Part shown: positions 27,359-62,747 of the stretch, one piece after another | Layout of the letters: the number at the start of each line of letters is the position of its first letter | Numbering within the stretch: the first letter of the stretch is position 1 | NCBI RefSeq assembly: GCF_024218775.1 | Contig: NZ_CP100404.1 | Location: 1,674,001 to 1,738,000 of the forward strand | DNA: 64,000 bases | Direction: 5' to 3' | From: Haloarcula marina | Lineage (GTDB): Archaea > Halobacteriota > Halobacteria > Halobacteriales > Haloarculaceae | Notes under the pieces: generated by a model | Databases searched by the model: none | Told to the model about the DNA's origin: nothing | The model's input: the letters and a program-made list of their open reading frames with translations, nothing else | Program-made: the position numbers and the translations under genes

Positions 27359-27640
27359 TCACACCATGTTTTCGGTCTCGATGGTCTGCCAGACGTCTAG
27401 CCCGGCGTCGGTGATGCCGTAGACGCGGCCCTTGCGCCGGTCCTCGGAGACGAGCAGGCGGACGAGATCGTTGTCCCGTAGCTCTTGGAGCGCCCGAGAG
27501 ACGTGTGCGATGCTGAGGTCCGTTTCGTCGGCGATGAGCGACGGCGTCGCGGGTCCCTCTGAGAGTCGTTGCAACGTTGCGATGCGATAGCGGGAGCTGA
27601 TCACGTAGCTGACTTTGTCCCACGGGTCCGAATTCGTCAT
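27359..27640 (-). CDS. Winged-helix (MarR/ArsR-like) transcriptional regulator
   Basis: The 93-residue protein is a single winged helix-turn-helix. YVISSRYRIATLQRLSEG forms the first helices, TPSLIADETDLSIAHVSRAL forms the turn and recognition helix, and RKGRVYGITDAGLDVWQ forms the wing and last strand. No ligand domain is present. The start is supported by an AGGAG Shine-Dalgarno sequence seven bases before the ATG, unusual in this leaderless-rich region. A CGGTAACAG sequence just upstream also occurs before the DUF7344 gene to its right. The target genes are unknown. Confidence 0.75.
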   Translation of the reverse strand: MTNSDPWDKVSYVISSRYRIATLQRLSEGPATPSLIADETDLSIAHVSRALQELRDNDLVRLLVSEDRRKGRVYGITDAGLDVWQTIETENMV

Positions 27641-27647
27641 TTACTTT

Positions 27648-27652
27648 CTCCT
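27648..27652 (-). promoter_or_regulatory. Shine-Dalgarno sequence
   Basis: AGGAG on the minus strand stands seven bases before the ATG at 27640, marking a leadered transcript for the winged-helix gene. Confidence 0.55.
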
Positions 27653-27821
27653 CGTGTCCTGTTACCGGAATAGTGCTTGCGAGGTACTGTCGCTGGATGT
27701 ACCGTGTGGTGGTTGCTGAGGGACATGAATAACCATTTCGTTGTTTCGAACGAGTAAGGCCTTCCAATACCGCACCACCGCCCCTTCGAGCGACGGTCGC
27801 CGACCGACGGCGTGGATAGAC

Positions 27822-28352
27822 TCATCGGAGTTCCGGCGGCCGGGTATTCGCCCGGCGTCGATAGTCCAGACACTGTGCGGCGGTGACGACTGTGAGGAGT
27901 CCCACGACGAGCGTCGCGACGAGCGTCGTCGGGACGGCGACGGCCGAACCGGCGAGCGCTGCGCCGACGAGTGCGAGACCCGTGACTCCAGCGGTCGCAC
28001 CGCTGAAACGAGGCCAAGGGACCACCGGCGCGATTGGCCCGAGGTAGCGGTCCGTCTCGGTGACCGAAGTCGTCGGCGCGACGGTCCGCTCCGTTTCGTC
28101 GTACTCGACGAGTCCGGCCGCTTCGAGCGTCGGGATGTGCGTCTGGTACAGCGAGACGTAGATACGCTTCTGCTCGGCGGTATCGATGTCGTCCGGCGAC
28201 GTTCCGGCTTCCTGCGCGCCGATGCCCCGTGCGAGACGCATCAGCTCCACCGGGGCGTCGGCCTCCCGGAGCGTCGAGAGAATGAATCGACGACGGCTGT
28301 TACTCATCACTCCGAAGGCTGTATCGCGGGCGAGCGGTGTCTCCCCACTCAT
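27822..28352 (-). CDS. Membrane-tethered DUF7344 winged-helix protein
   Basis: The 176-residue protein starts with a DUF7344 winged helix (about residues 8-95). Its marks are FGVMSNSRRRFILSTL, a mid segment QKRIYVSLYQTHIPTLE, and AGLVEYDE. Two hydrophobic helices follow (about 118-140 and 143-162), ending in a short basic tail. It should sit in the membrane with its DNA-binding part in the cytoplasm. DUF7344 proteins are abundant in haloarchaea and presumed regulators with unknown ligands. Its promoter region carries TACGTAACAAAG, shared with the DUF7344 gene at 32467. Confidence 0.75.
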   Translation of the reverse strand: MSGETPLARDTAFGVMSNSRRRFILSTLREADAPVELMRLARGIGAQEAGTSPDDIDTAEQKRIYVSLYQTHIPTLEAAGLVEYDETERTVAPTTSVTETDRYLGPIAPVVPWPRFSGATAGVTGLALVGAALAGSAVAVPTTLVATLVVGLLTVVTAAQCLDYRRRANTRPPELR

Positions 28353-32315: not shown

Positions 32316-32453
32316 TATTAAGTAGCGAAAGCGTGTCTCATTTGACAGGCGCTTGGGTTCGGACGGACGCCTCGTCACGACCGCGTTGTGGGTGTGTGCG
32401 ACTTCACCAACCGGTCACGACAAACCGTCGTCGTCCGCGTCCGGGCGTAGCCC

Positions 32454-32459
32454 AGGAGG
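32454..32459 (+). promoter_or_regulatory. Shine-Dalgarno sequence AGGAGG
   Basis: A full AGGAGG seven bases before the ATG at 32467 fixes that start and excludes the upstream in-frame TTG at 32353. Confidence 0.65.
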
Positions 32460-32466
32460 GCTATCA

Positions 32467-33108
32467 ATGAGTACCCAGGACCAAACCCCCATCGAGAAGG
32501 ACCAGACCCCCATCGAATCGGATTTAGACGAATCGACCTCTGAGACAGCAGCGGTCGATGCAGAAGCGCAGGACCAGGAAGCCGAGACGCAGGCGACAGA
32601 GACGGACCTCTCGCTCGACCTCATCTTCGAGATTCTGAAGAACAGCCGCCGCCGCGAAGTACTCCACTATCTCCGGGACCACGAAGAGGGCGAGCGCGTG
32701 TCACTCGGCGAACTCGCCGAACACGTCGCCGCCATCGAGAACGACACGACGACGGAGGCACTGACCTCCAGCGAGCGAAAGCGCGTGTACGTCGGCCTCT
32801 ACCAGTGTCATCTTCCGAAGATGGACGACATGGGCGTCGTGGAGTTCAACCAGAACCGCGGTCACGTCGAACTCGCGCCCGCCGCCGAGCAACTGACCGA
32901 GTACCTCGACCGGCCCGCCGAGTCGGCGCGCGTCCCGTGGCACCGCTACTACGCGGTCATCTCGGGCATCGGCGTCGCCGTCCTCGGCCTCGCCGTGGGA
33001 CTCGGACTGGCTCAGAGCGTGCTCTTGCTGATGGTGGGCCTCGTCGTGGCCACGTTCGCGTTCTGTTCCGGAACGCACTGGTACGTCGAATCCCAGACCG
33101 AAGAGTAA
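32467..33108 (+). CDS. Membrane-tethered DUF7344 winged-helix protein
   Basis: A 213-residue protein with an acidic Gln/Glu/Thr-rich N-terminus (to ~45) that contains an imperfect repeat DQTPIE. The DUF7344 winged helix follows (about 47-150: IFEILKNSRRREVLHYL, LAEHVAAIEND, SERKRVYVGLYQCHLPKMD), then two hydrophobic helices (about 162-200). Unlike most genes here it has a leader and a strong Shine-Dalgarno site. It follows the dehydrogenase operon and shares a promoter element with the DUF7344 gene on its other side, so the two may respond to the same signal or regulate each other. Confidence 0.75.
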   Translation: MSTQDQTPIEKDQTPIESDLDESTSETAAVDAEAQDQEAETQATETDLSLDLIFEILKNSRRREVLHYLRDHEEGERVSLGELAEHVAAIENDTTTEALTSSERKRVYVGLYQCHLPKMDDMGVVEFNQNRGHVELAPAAEQLTEYLDRPAESARVPWHRYYAVISGIGVAVLGLAVGLGLAQSVLLLMVGLVVATFAFCSGTHWYVESQTEE

Positions 33109-49471: not shown

Positions 49472-51277
49472 ATGCGAGTGCGGAGCCTGTCGACTATCTT
49501 ACTGGTTATGGTCGTGCTAACCGGACTATTCGCGGGTCCGGTCCACGCCGCTAGCGTCCCGACGGCCGCGAACGAGACGGCGGGGGCGAGCGCCGACGGC
49601 GCTATCGACCGAGTCACGACCACGTACGATGCGTGGGAACAGGGGTCCACCACGTACGTGTGGAAACAGACTGCCGACGGGCGCACGGTCAACACGTACA
49701 TCGTCGACGTCGCCGTCACGGAGGCTGAGGCGGGACTCGAACTCTGCCTCGACGCCGACGGCGACCGCAGGTGTACGCCGGTCCGCGGCGGAGTGACGAC
49801 GTTCACGCTCTCGCCGAACGCGAGCGTCGACGCCCAGTCGCTCACGTTCACGCTCCGCAACGCGACGACGGGCGCGACCGCTGACGTACGAACCGTCACG
49901 TACCAGCGAATCTCCCGCGGTGGCGACGTGGACCAAGACGGCCTCGCCAACGACAGGGAACTCGCCCTCGGGACCAACGTCACCGGCGCGGACACGGACG
50001 GCGACGGCCTCGCCGACGGTGTGGAAATCGACAAGCACGGGACGGACCCGACGGTGGCCGATACGGACGGCGACGGCCTCAGCGACCGGACCGACCTGAG
50101 CGTCGGCGCTGACCCGACGAAGGCCGACACGGACGGCGACGGTGTTCGAGACCAGCGCGAATTGGAGTTGGACACGGACCCGAACGGAAGCGACACTGAC
50201 GGCGACGGTATCGCGGACGGGGCGGAACTCGACGCCGGGACGGACCCGACGAAGGCCGACACGGACGGCGACGGCCTCGGTGACGGGCGCGAACTCGAAC
50301 TCGGGACGAGCGTCGTGGTCGCCGACAGCGACGGCGACGGTATCGGCGACGGTCAGGAGGTGACGCTCGGCACCGACCCCACGTCGGCCTACACGGACGA
50401 CGACGGCCTCCCCGACGGCGAGGAGCGAACGCTGGGCCTCGACCCGACGGCTGCCGACTCCGACGGTGACGGTCTGTGGGACGGAGCGGAACTCGATGTC
50501 GGAACCGACCCGAGCGTCGTCGACTCCGACGGCGACGGCCTGCGCGACGGTCGGGAGGTCCACGAACTCGGGACGGACCCGCTGGCCGGTGATACTGACG
50601 GGGACTTCCTGACCGACGAGATGGAGGTGGACATGGGGACCGACCCGACGAACCTCAGCACGGCCGCGTGGCTGACCAGCGCGCTCCTCGGGTTCGCCGT
50701 CGGTATCGGCCTCACCGTCACCGCCGTCGCCAGCGGCGGTACGGGCGCGCTGGTCGCTCGTGTGCGTTCCCGGGCACGACAGGTCCGTGAGGTGGTGGCT
50801 GAGCGAGCGACGCTGGCGGGCGACGCTGACGGAACTGAGGCCGAGACGACGGTACCGACGGGCCAAGATGCGGGTTCCGCCTCCGACCCCAGTCGTCCCG
50901 TCGACGCTGAGCCAGTCGCTGCTGAGGCCGCGTCCGACGAGCATGGGTCCGCAACGGGCGACGAGGAACCCCCGCCGACGTACGAGTCCGCCGCGGCGGC
51001 GTTCGAAGCGGCCGACCCCGGGCGTCTCGCGGACGAGGAGTGTATCCTCCGCATGCTGGCCGCCGAGGACGGCCGGATGCGACAGAGCGAAATCGTCGCC
51101 GCCTCGGACTGGTCGAAGGCGAAGGTTAGCCGGTTGCTCTCTCGGATGGCCGCCGACGAGGACGTGGTGAAGGTGCGCATCGGTCGGGAGAACCTCATCT
51201 GTCTCGAACACGCGACGCCCGAGTCGGTGGAGACGGACTCCCCTGGCGACGGGACGCAAAGCTCCGCGACGGTCTGA
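49472..51277 (+). CDS. Membrane-anchored winged-helix protein with extracellular TSP3-like calcium repeats
   Basis: The 601-residue protein has a Sec signal peptide (MRVRSLSTILLVMVVLTGLF, cleavage near residue 27) and an extracellular beta domain (~40-145). Eleven tandem repeats of the thrombospondin type-3/DxDxDGxxD form follow (about 151-390), then one transmembrane helix (about 397-420). An acidic linker leads to a cytoplasmic winged helix-turn-helix (about 519-580: CILRMLAAEDGRMRQSEI, ASDWSKAKVSRLLSRM). The repeats typically bind calcium. The layout suggests a one-component sensor coupling extracellular calcium, or the state of the surface layer, to transcription. Cleavage of the cytoplasmic part could be needed for DNA binding. 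The ligand is inferred, not shown. Confidence 0.75.
   Translation: MRVRSLSTILLVMVVLTGLFAGPVHAASVPTAANETAGASADGAIDRVTTTYDAWEQGSTTYVWKQTADGRTVNTYIVDVAVTEAEAGLELCLDADGDRRCTPVRGGVTTFTLSPNASVDAQSLTFTLRNATTGATADVRTVTYQRISRGGDVDQDGLANDRELALGTNVTGADTDGDGLADGVEIDKHGTDPTVADTDGDGLSDRTDLSVGADPTKADTDGDGVRDQRELELDTDPNGSDTDGDGIADGAELDAGTDPTKADTDGDGLGDGRELELGTSVVVADSDGDGIGDGQEVTLGTDPTSAYTDDDGLPDGEERTLGLDPTAADSDGDGLWDGAELDVGTDPSVVDSDGDGLRDGREVHELGTDPLAGDTDGDFLTDEMEVDMGTDPTNLSTAAWLTSALLGFAVGIGLTVTAVASGGTGALVARVRSRARQVREVVAERATLAGDADGTEAETTVPTGQDAGSASDPSRPVDAEPVAAEAASDEHGSATGDEEPPPTYESAAAAFEAADPGRLADEECILRMLAAEDGRMRQSEIVAASDWSKAKVSRLLSRMAADEDVVKVRIGRENLICLEHATPESVETDSPGDGTQSSATV
49922..50641 (+). repeat. Eleven tandem DxDxDG-type repeats (in coding DNA)
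   Basis: The unit is GTDPT-x(4-5)-DTDGDGLxDGxE with 20-24 codons per copy. Many copies share the DNA GACACGGACGGCGACGG or close variants, so the array could expand or contract by recombination. Confidence 0.75.
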
Positions 51278-51714
51278 GGCGACGGCGCGCCCCACGTGGG
51301 ACCGCGTGTCGCGGTAATTCGCCGCTGTCGGCGCTACTGAGGACGGCCGGGTGCCGCGGCTCGCGCACGCCTATCTGAACTTCTCGACAGCGTCGCGTAT
51401 CACCAGCGTCCCCACTCTGACCGCCACTGTCGACCTATCCCGCTCCCTCGCTCTAGGCCCGTCGGGGCGCACTGTCGCCGGCGATGACCGTTCCCAGAGA
51501 GCGCACAGGCGAACTCGCAGTCGGTCGTGTGCGCCGGCGGAGCGAACACTCCGATTTCCGACCGTTTCACCGAGTTTCACCGAAATCGAGGGATTGAAAC
51601 GCCGAAACGGGAATCCCGGAACCTCGGGGAACTGTCTGGAACGGTTCCGGACGCCGCAATCGACCGGAACGTTCGCCCCGCTATATCCCGGTCCTCACCG
51701 AAGGGGTACTCGAG
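51278..51714. other. 437-bp region without a supported gene
   Basis: Open frames here lack third-position bias. The right end holds GCTATATCCC (~51681), which is a plausible TATA box about 33 nt before the DUF7344 ATG at 51715. Nothing else stands out. Confidence 0.45.
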
Positions 51715-52434
51715 ATGGCTACGACAGAACTACACCACGAACCAACGACTCCGGGGCCGGAGACGCCCGACCCGTCAGACGAGGCGGCGTTGACGCGCGA
51801 CGAGATATTCCACGTCTTGCAGTGCCGACGACGCCGACTGGTGTTGAAGTACCTCGACGAGTACGGCGGCAACGGCCCCGCGCGGATGGGCGATATCGCC
51901 GAACACGTCGCCGCCGTCGAACAGGAGACGACCGTCGACCGACTCACCTCCCAACAGCGCCAGCGCGTCTACATCTCCCTGTATCAGTCTCACCTCAAGA
52001 CGCTGGACCGCCTCGGTATCGTCGACTACGACCGTGACCGGGGGTTCGTCGAACGAACCGCGCTCGCCGCCGAGTTCGACCAGTTCCTCGCGAACGAACC
52101 CACGCTCCTGGCGCGAACGGACGGCGGTGACGCCCAAACGGATAGCGTGGACGCCCACGCAGACCGGCGGGTGAGCGCGAGCGCACCCGTCGACCCCGCC
52201 GCCGGAAACGCGGCCGCCGACGGGAACGAGGAGACGGACACGCACTGGCATCGCCGATACCTCTACGCCGCAGCCGCGAGCGCGCTCACTGCGACGGCCA
52301 TCGCTGGCGACGTCGTCTCGATTCCGCTCGGCCCACAGGGGGGGTTAGCCGTCCTCGTGAGCCTGCTGTTCGTGGTCCTCGCGGTGACCCACTGGAACAG
52401 CGCGAGTTCGCCGAGGCGACCCGACTCGCAGTGA
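51715..52434 (+). CDS. Membrane-tethered DUF7344 winged-helix protein
   Basis: A 239-residue protein with a Pro/Glu-rich N-terminus (to ~25) and a DUF7344 winged helix (~27-125: DEIFHVLQCRRRRLVLKYL, IAEHVAAVEQETT, QRQRVYISLYQSHLKTLD, LGIVDYDRDRGFVE). A long acidic linker and two C-terminal hydrophobic helices (~180-225) follow. It is built like the proteins at 27822 and 32467 but has a much longer linker. It follows the calcium-repeat sensor and precedes a metal ATPase. Its cytoplasmic wing probably binds DNA. Confidence 0.75.
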   Translation: MATTELHHEPTTPGPETPDPSDEAALTRDEIFHVLQCRRRRLVLKYLDEYGGNGPARMGDIAEHVAAVEQETTVDRLTSQQRQRVYISLYQSHLKTLDRLGIVDYDRDRGFVERTALAAEFDQFLANEPTLLARTDGGDAQTDSVDAHADRRVSASAPVDPAAGNAAADGNEETDTHWHRRYLYAAAASALTATAIAGDVVSIPLGPQGGLAVLVSLLFVVLAVTHWNSASSPRRPDSQ

Positions 52435-62375: not shown

Positions 62376-62747
62376 ATGGTAAATCATGAGGTAATCGGCG
62401 GGCGATTGACTGATGACGAAGTGTACGACCTATTGAGTCACCCGCACCGCATCAGCGCCATTCGATGCCTCCGTCGGCAGGACGAAGCCGTCTCGTTCAA
62501 CGAGTTGGCAGAATACATCGCGATGGAAGTCGAACCGGACGGCGATATTCGGAACGGAGAGTTGATTGGGCGAATCAAGACGCAACTACATCACGCACAC
62601 CTCCCGAAGTTGCTCGACGCGGGCGTCGTCGAGTTCTCTCAGGAAACTGACCTCGTGCGGCTCACCGCCGAGGAGGAACTCCGGCCGTTTTTCACCGAAG
62701 TCTCGCGAATCAAAGTGACCACGCAACTCACGGCGGCGGACTGGTAG
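62376..62747 (+). CDS. Soluble DUF7344 winged-helix protein
   Basis: The 123-residue protein is a bare DUF7344 domain: DDEVYDLLSHPHRISAIRCL, FNELAEYIAMEV, GRIKTQLHHAHLPKLL and DAGVVEFSQETDLVRLT. It has no membrane segments, unlike the other three relatives in this window, so it should act directly as a DNA-binding protein. A TTATATTTT box sits 28 nt before the ATG. It is separated from the tyrosine recombinase gene by ~170 bp. Confidence 0.75.
   Translation: MVNHEVIGGRLTDDEVYDLLSHPHRISAIRCLRRQDEAVSFNELAEYIAMEVEPDGDIRNGELIGRIKTQLHHAHLPKLLDAGVVEFSQETDLVRLTAEEELRPFFTEVSRIKVTTQLTAADW

Follow-up and report, generated by a model that had tools for sequence, protein, structure and literature searches.

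Little is known about how archaea relay the state of their envelope to transcription, and a gene of Haloarcula marina raises the question of whether a single protein chain could do so and what it would read. The gene lies in the window, the whole 64,000-nucleotide stretch of contig NZ_CP100404.1 (positions 1,674,001 to 1,738,000) that was analysed. An earlier note on this DNA had described its product as a predicted one-component sensor in which a signal peptide, eleven DxDxDG repeats, one transmembrane (TM) helix and a cytoplasmic winged helix-turn-helix (wHTH) give extracellular divalent cations or the state of the S-layer a direct path to transcription. Pfam searches, hydropathy and an AF2 model together place these features in one chain. 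The list of domains was real but incomplete, as it missed an Ig-like head in front of the repeats, and the account overlooked three paralogues of related layout and a constant neighbouring gene with a DUF7344 domain (Table 1).

Table 1. Features of the regulator gene, its partner and the promoter between them, numbered from the first letter of the window
Feature	Position	Strand	Evidence
TSP3-stalked membrane regulator gene	49472..51277	+	ORF, 601 aa, ATG start; Pfam matches; orthologues of the same layout
Predicted signal peptide, residues 1-27	49472..49552	+	Hydrophobic stretch 6-24, then AxA-type site; model helix 3-19
Predicted Ig-like beta-sandwich head, residues 44-147, near-invariant Cys92/Cys101	49601..49912	+	Alignment; AF2 domain model, pLDDT 79; fold class only
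Eleven TSP3 repeats, residues 152-396	49925..50659	+	PF18884, E=2.9e-49; repeat listing; ligand conservation
Predicted TM helix, residues 397-420, conserved GFxxGxG	50660..50731	+	Hydropathy; conserved G407, F408, G411; model
Predicted basic juxtamembrane helix, residues 424-447	50741..50812	+	Model, low confidence
Predicted disordered cytoplasmic linker, residues 448-505	50813..50986	+	pLDDT about 30; 5% identity among orthologues
DUF7343 winged helix, residues 507-578	50990..51205	+	PF24034, E=1.7e-24; 65% mean identity; model pLDDT 77-90
Conserved repeat element ahead of the partner gene, in diverged form, with TATAT at 51682-51686	51638..51675	+	Alignment of orthologous promoters
Partner gene, product of 239 aa with a DUF7344 winged helix and, C-terminally, two TM helices	51715..52434	+	PF24035, E=1.1e-26; TM prediction; constant adjacency

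The repeats match TSP3_bac (PF18884) in 10 stretches with 164.9 bits (cut-off 25), and the winged helix matches DUF7343 (PF24034) over residues 519-578 with 85.9 bits (cut-off 27.6) while also exceeding the cut-off of HTH_IclR. The hydrophobic stretches, residues 6-24 and 401-419, correspond to the signal peptide and the TM helix. As the earlier note counted, there are eleven repeats in all (period 22-24 aa), but only nine are strictly DxDxDG, the other two being the variants YTDDDG and DTDGDF. In the full-length AF2 model the repeats mostly have a pLDDT >90, falling to about 80 in the last ones, and are followed by the TM helix, the juxtamembrane helix, the disordered linker and a confident winged helix. 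Orthologue alignment, model and structural neighbours agree that the wHTH fold is conserved. A sequence search with the TM-wHTH part returned no solved relatives at E 0.1.

The head is an Ig-like beta-sandwich of about 100 residues, recognized from alignment and the AF2 model, with a near-invariant pair of cysteines and an invariant tryptophan. Pfam offers no convincing family name for it, and fold searches go no further than the Ig-like class (best VIA Z 9.9, best Foldseek E 6e-3), so no family is claimed.

Orthologues were sought in 391 genomes of the class, using the head domain and an alignment from the TM helix to the C-terminal end as queries. The head domain gives 24 matches, mostly in the window's own genus, and 22 of these proteins retain head, about ten repeats, TM helix and wHTH. 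The alignment separates 23 genomes at E 1.8e-46 or better from other DUF7343 proteins at 1.8e-35 and weaker. The architecture search that the earlier note had advised is thereby answered: 18 of the 24 Haloarcula-type genomes sampled are among these 23, and the full layout is present in other haloarchaeal families too, the named carriers being Haloarcula and Halomicroarcula species, Halovivax asiaticus, Halorussus salinisoli and HArc-gm2. Because the same layout recurs in orthologues, it is not a product of chance. Mean identity to the window protein is 65% in the wHTH, 60% in the repeats, 56% in the TM helix, 30% in the head and 5% in the cytoplasmic linker. Viral contigs gave no relatives, and a viral origin was rejected. 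Two head-domain matches were rejected as orthologues, one interrupted by in-frame stops (genome G077) and one located close to the C-terminal end of a 949-aa protein that has no TSP3 repeats (genome G238). The latter protein (L184:1546-4395) resembles the AglB oligosaccharyltransferase, and the likeness of its C-terminal stretch to the Ig-like head (E 1.7e-5) makes a link between the head domain and N-glycosylation possible.

The distribution of glycosylation sequons and the charge around the TM helix support a topology with the repeats outside and the wHTH inside. Among 34 orthologues, 264 N-X-S/T sequons fall between the signal peptide and the TM helix and 0 after it, against expectations of 94 and 10.5 when each part of the protein is shuffled separately; 0 of 200 shuffles reached either observed count. 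The net charge of the window protein is -2 just before the TM helix and +3 just after. Both results agree with the orientation that the earlier note had assumed.

Across 377 repeats, an acidic residue (Asp or Glu) occupies positions 1, 3, 5 and 12 in about 99% of cases or more, and Asp occupies position 9 in 89%, figures that lean upward because the rule used to detect repeats demands some of the ligand residues; several non-ligand positions vary freely. This pattern supports the prediction that the repeats bind cations. Conserved calcium ligands are, however, predicted equally by a sensor and by a structural stalk. A model in which the repeats do the sensing, their folding following external Ca/Mg or the assembly state of the S-layer and driving transcription directly, can draw on the near-invariance of the ligands and on the calcium dependence of the Haloferax S-layer (PMC8640222). 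Yet a stalk would conserve the ligands just as well, a separate conserved head domain is present, and the number of repeats ranges among orthologues from 6 (Halovivax) to about 11, which fits a stalk. The abundance of divalent cations in natural brines may, moreover, keep the sites filled most of the time. Direct sensing by the repeats is accordingly rated unlikely, and a calcium-stiffened stalk presenting the Ig-like head would account for them equally well or better.

Membrane-bound regulators of the ToxR type carry their DNA-binding domain at the N-terminus. The present regulator resembles the ToxR, CadC and ArnR types in joining a DNA-binding domain and a TM region in one chain, but its winged helix is C-terminal, behind a cleavable signal peptide. 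Transmembrane transcription regulators (TTRs), defined as single chains that combine a predicted DNA-binding domain with one or more TM regions, are widespread, with single-pass types the commonest (PMC10269533), and by its predicted domains the regulator is one of them. Archaeal TTRs that have been studied are ArnR and ArnR1, and in ArnR the HTH is at the N-terminus and a pair of TM helices at the C-terminus (PMC6396743). The statement in the earlier note that no characterised protein has this layout may therefore hold for the TSP3 version, but TTRs as such were already described and DUF7343 membrane regulators are almost universal in haloarchaea, relatives of the TM-wHTH part occurring in 387 of the 391 genomes.

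The window genome has four strong DUF7343 proteins, the regulator and three uncharacterised paralogues (L001, L002 and L003). All three paralogues match PF24036 (DUF7345) and share with the regulator a signal peptide, one TM helix and a C-terminal DUF7343 winged helix inside the cell, but their ectodomain is DUF7345 instead of a head on TSP3 repeats; the regulator has no PF24036 match in Pfam and so falls outside this DUF7345-DUF7343 subfamily. Short DUF7343 versions with little ectodomain are found in other haloarchaea, many of them Natrialbaceae. Given these differences, the ectodomain appears to be swapped on a common TM-wHTH chassis, with the TSP3-stalked head as the variant seen here. The layout is thus not new as a kind; what is unusual is the TSP3-stalked head together with the constant DUF7344 neighbour. 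The literature searched yielded no paper naming DUF7343 and none connecting transcription, archaea and TSP3 repeats. Bacterial TSP3-repeat surface proteins (PF18884; CglD and MtsD in NCBIfam) have the same calcium-type repeats but, to our knowledge, no DNA-binding domain; the CglD and MtsD models align with the regulator over the repeats only and score far below their cut-offs. The only other TSP3 protein of the window genome (L010:637-2745; G000:C1 about 2782900-2783800) is without DUF7343 and, with a HELGH-motif domain after its repeats, looks like a surface metalloprotease.

The DUF7344 gene lies directly downstream of the regulator in 12 of 12 named loci with the full layout (L049-L060, the more distant TSP3 protein of L062 being excepted), while the other neighbours differ between lineages. 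Its product has the winged helix at the N-terminus and the TM helices at the C-terminus. By coordinates, a same-strand DUF7344 match lies no more than about 1 kb away in each of the 23 regulator-bearing genomes; this adjacent copy scores >122 bits in 22 of them, and in G142 a copy of 85 bits stands at the right position. All nine relatives tested that are without the regulator have only lower-scoring DUF7344 members (best 107 bits, interrupted by stops), which appear to be weaker paralogues and not orthologues of the partner. The constancy of this neighbour suggests that the regulator probably passes a surface signal straight to the DUF7344 gene. In the glycan locus of G336, which has no TSP3 regulator, a short-ectodomain DUF7343 membrane protein is encoded next to a DUF7344 gene (L183:4425-5939) with glmS/asnB-like genes beside them, as if the ectodomain had been swapped; DUF7343-DUF7344 pairing may thus be more general than the TSP3 regulator.

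A candidate operator is found in the promoter of the partner. Haloarcula relatives share a direct repeat, GAAACAGTC-N9-GGAACAGTC, before the DUF7344 gene and a few bases upstream of its TATA box, and this is the most conserved stretch of the intergenic region (0.96 vs a mean of 0.57). In each of 12 genomes the pattern GAAACAGYC-N6..9-GGAACAGTC has a single occurrence, which invariably lies between regulator and partner; its reversed control has none. The window genome carries the element in diverged form. Its binding protein could also be DUF7344 or some other factor, and conservation at one promoter is not enough to identify the regulator of the gene. When up to three mismatches were allowed, the further sites carried two or three; a wider regulon acting through this repeat was rejected, since such sites are about as frequent as a rough chance estimate and those recurring between genomes are unlike promoter sites. 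Three of them read in context gave no clear story. In the window's genome a tandem half-site (TAAACGGTCTGAACAGTCTGAACAGTC) stands just upstream of a 228-aa gene (L180:1483-1509; G000:C1:2667182-2667208).

The reading that we favour, at roughly even confidence, is that of a transmembrane one-component regulator with its head presented on a calcium-stiffened stalk, acting through the direct repeat to control the adjacent DUF7344 partner. It builds on domain layout, topology, ligand conservation, the constant partner and the conserved promoter element, all read from sequence. The Ig-like head would be held off the membrane by eleven TSP3 repeats folded around divalent cations, most likely Ca2+, and the GFxxGxG helix would join this stalk to the basic helix, the flexible linker and the cytoplasmic DUF7343 winged helix. 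A change outside, either contact of the head with a ligand or the envelope or a shift in the folding state of the stalk, would change how the TM and juxtamembrane helices pair, and with this the DNA binding of the winged helix. Its main and perhaps dedicated target would be the DUF7344 gene, reached through the direct repeat just upstream of the TATA box.

The glycines of the TM helix, G407 and G411, are conserved among orthologues together with F408. Being helix-weakening, they would also suit a latent factor, in which cleavage of the glycine-rich TM helix by a rhomboid-type protease, set off by an outside signal, would free the wHTH fragment to act in the cytoplasm. The long disordered linker of the model is in keeping with such release, as is the report, taken from a reference title in PMC12186497, that deletion of a haloarchaeal rhomboid alters an S-layer N-glycan. 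However, GxxxG-type motifs suit helix pairing as well and no protease gene is constantly linked to the regulator in the loci compared, and we consider proteolytic release quite improbable. Still more doubtful is a surface adhesin or structural protein, not driven by any signal, whose wHTH would anchor the chromosome or a partner at the envelope: structural or adhesive functions are common among TSP3 proteins elsewhere, the best NCBIfam matches are motility and cohesion proteins and the structural neighbours of the wHTH include a plasmid centromere-binding protein, but the constant second wHTH gene and the conserved element in its promoter point to transcription, and the paralogues bear a different ectodomain on the same wHTH, as regulators do.

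If the stalked regulator does switch its partner gene, the two proteins would then act on further genes, plausibly those for cell-surface glycans. Glycan genes surround the pair in five of the six loci examined: G298, G368, G264, G138 and G071 have it in clusters with glucosamine synthase (a label that is our reading of the sequence) and AsnB-like genes and, variously, genes for a nucleotide-sugar dehydrogenase, glycosyltransferase, flippase, nucleotidyltransferase or sulfatase. The window itself contains a surface-polysaccharide cluster with DUF7344 genes at 7-33 kb. Most Haloarcula loci are without the glycan setting, the AsnB-like gene and a His-rich lipoprotein found elsewhere, so control of surface glycans by the pair is a suggestion only. 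Haloferax volcanii changes its S-layer glycans with salinity, according to reference titles in PMC12186497. Tentatively, the regulator and DUF7344 might form an undescribed archaeal transmembrane signalling module of two winged-helix proteins, both tethered to the membrane, whose calcium-stiffened stalk reads the state of the envelope (S-layer, glycan or divalent cations) and tunes the production of surface glycans. With a surface-stalked regulator, a constant membrane wHTH partner and a candidate operator, the locus offers a small, conserved and genetically testable unit, and with it a first concrete entry point to DUF7343 and DUF7344, two families common in haloarchaea to which Pfam assigns no function.

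Around and inside the polysaccharide cluster, a stretch of about 80 kb (G000:C1:1658386-1736660) holds 7 of the genome's 26 DUF7344 matches, including those at window positions 27822-28352, 32392-33108, 51715-52434 and 62376-62747. Inside the cluster, a gene for a 93-aa HTH protein with a weak DUF7343 match adjoins a DUF7344 gene (window 27359-28352), possibly as the pair's soluble counterpart. The AsnB-like gene and the His-rich lipoprotein were rejected as constant partners, both being absent from most Haloarcula including the window genome. In three lineages this conserved surface lipoprotein, with HPHPHG, HFH and WHAH motifs, is encoded near the regulator pair (L187:6062-7051, L190:13878-14789, L060:3395-4462), and it is possibly metal-binding.
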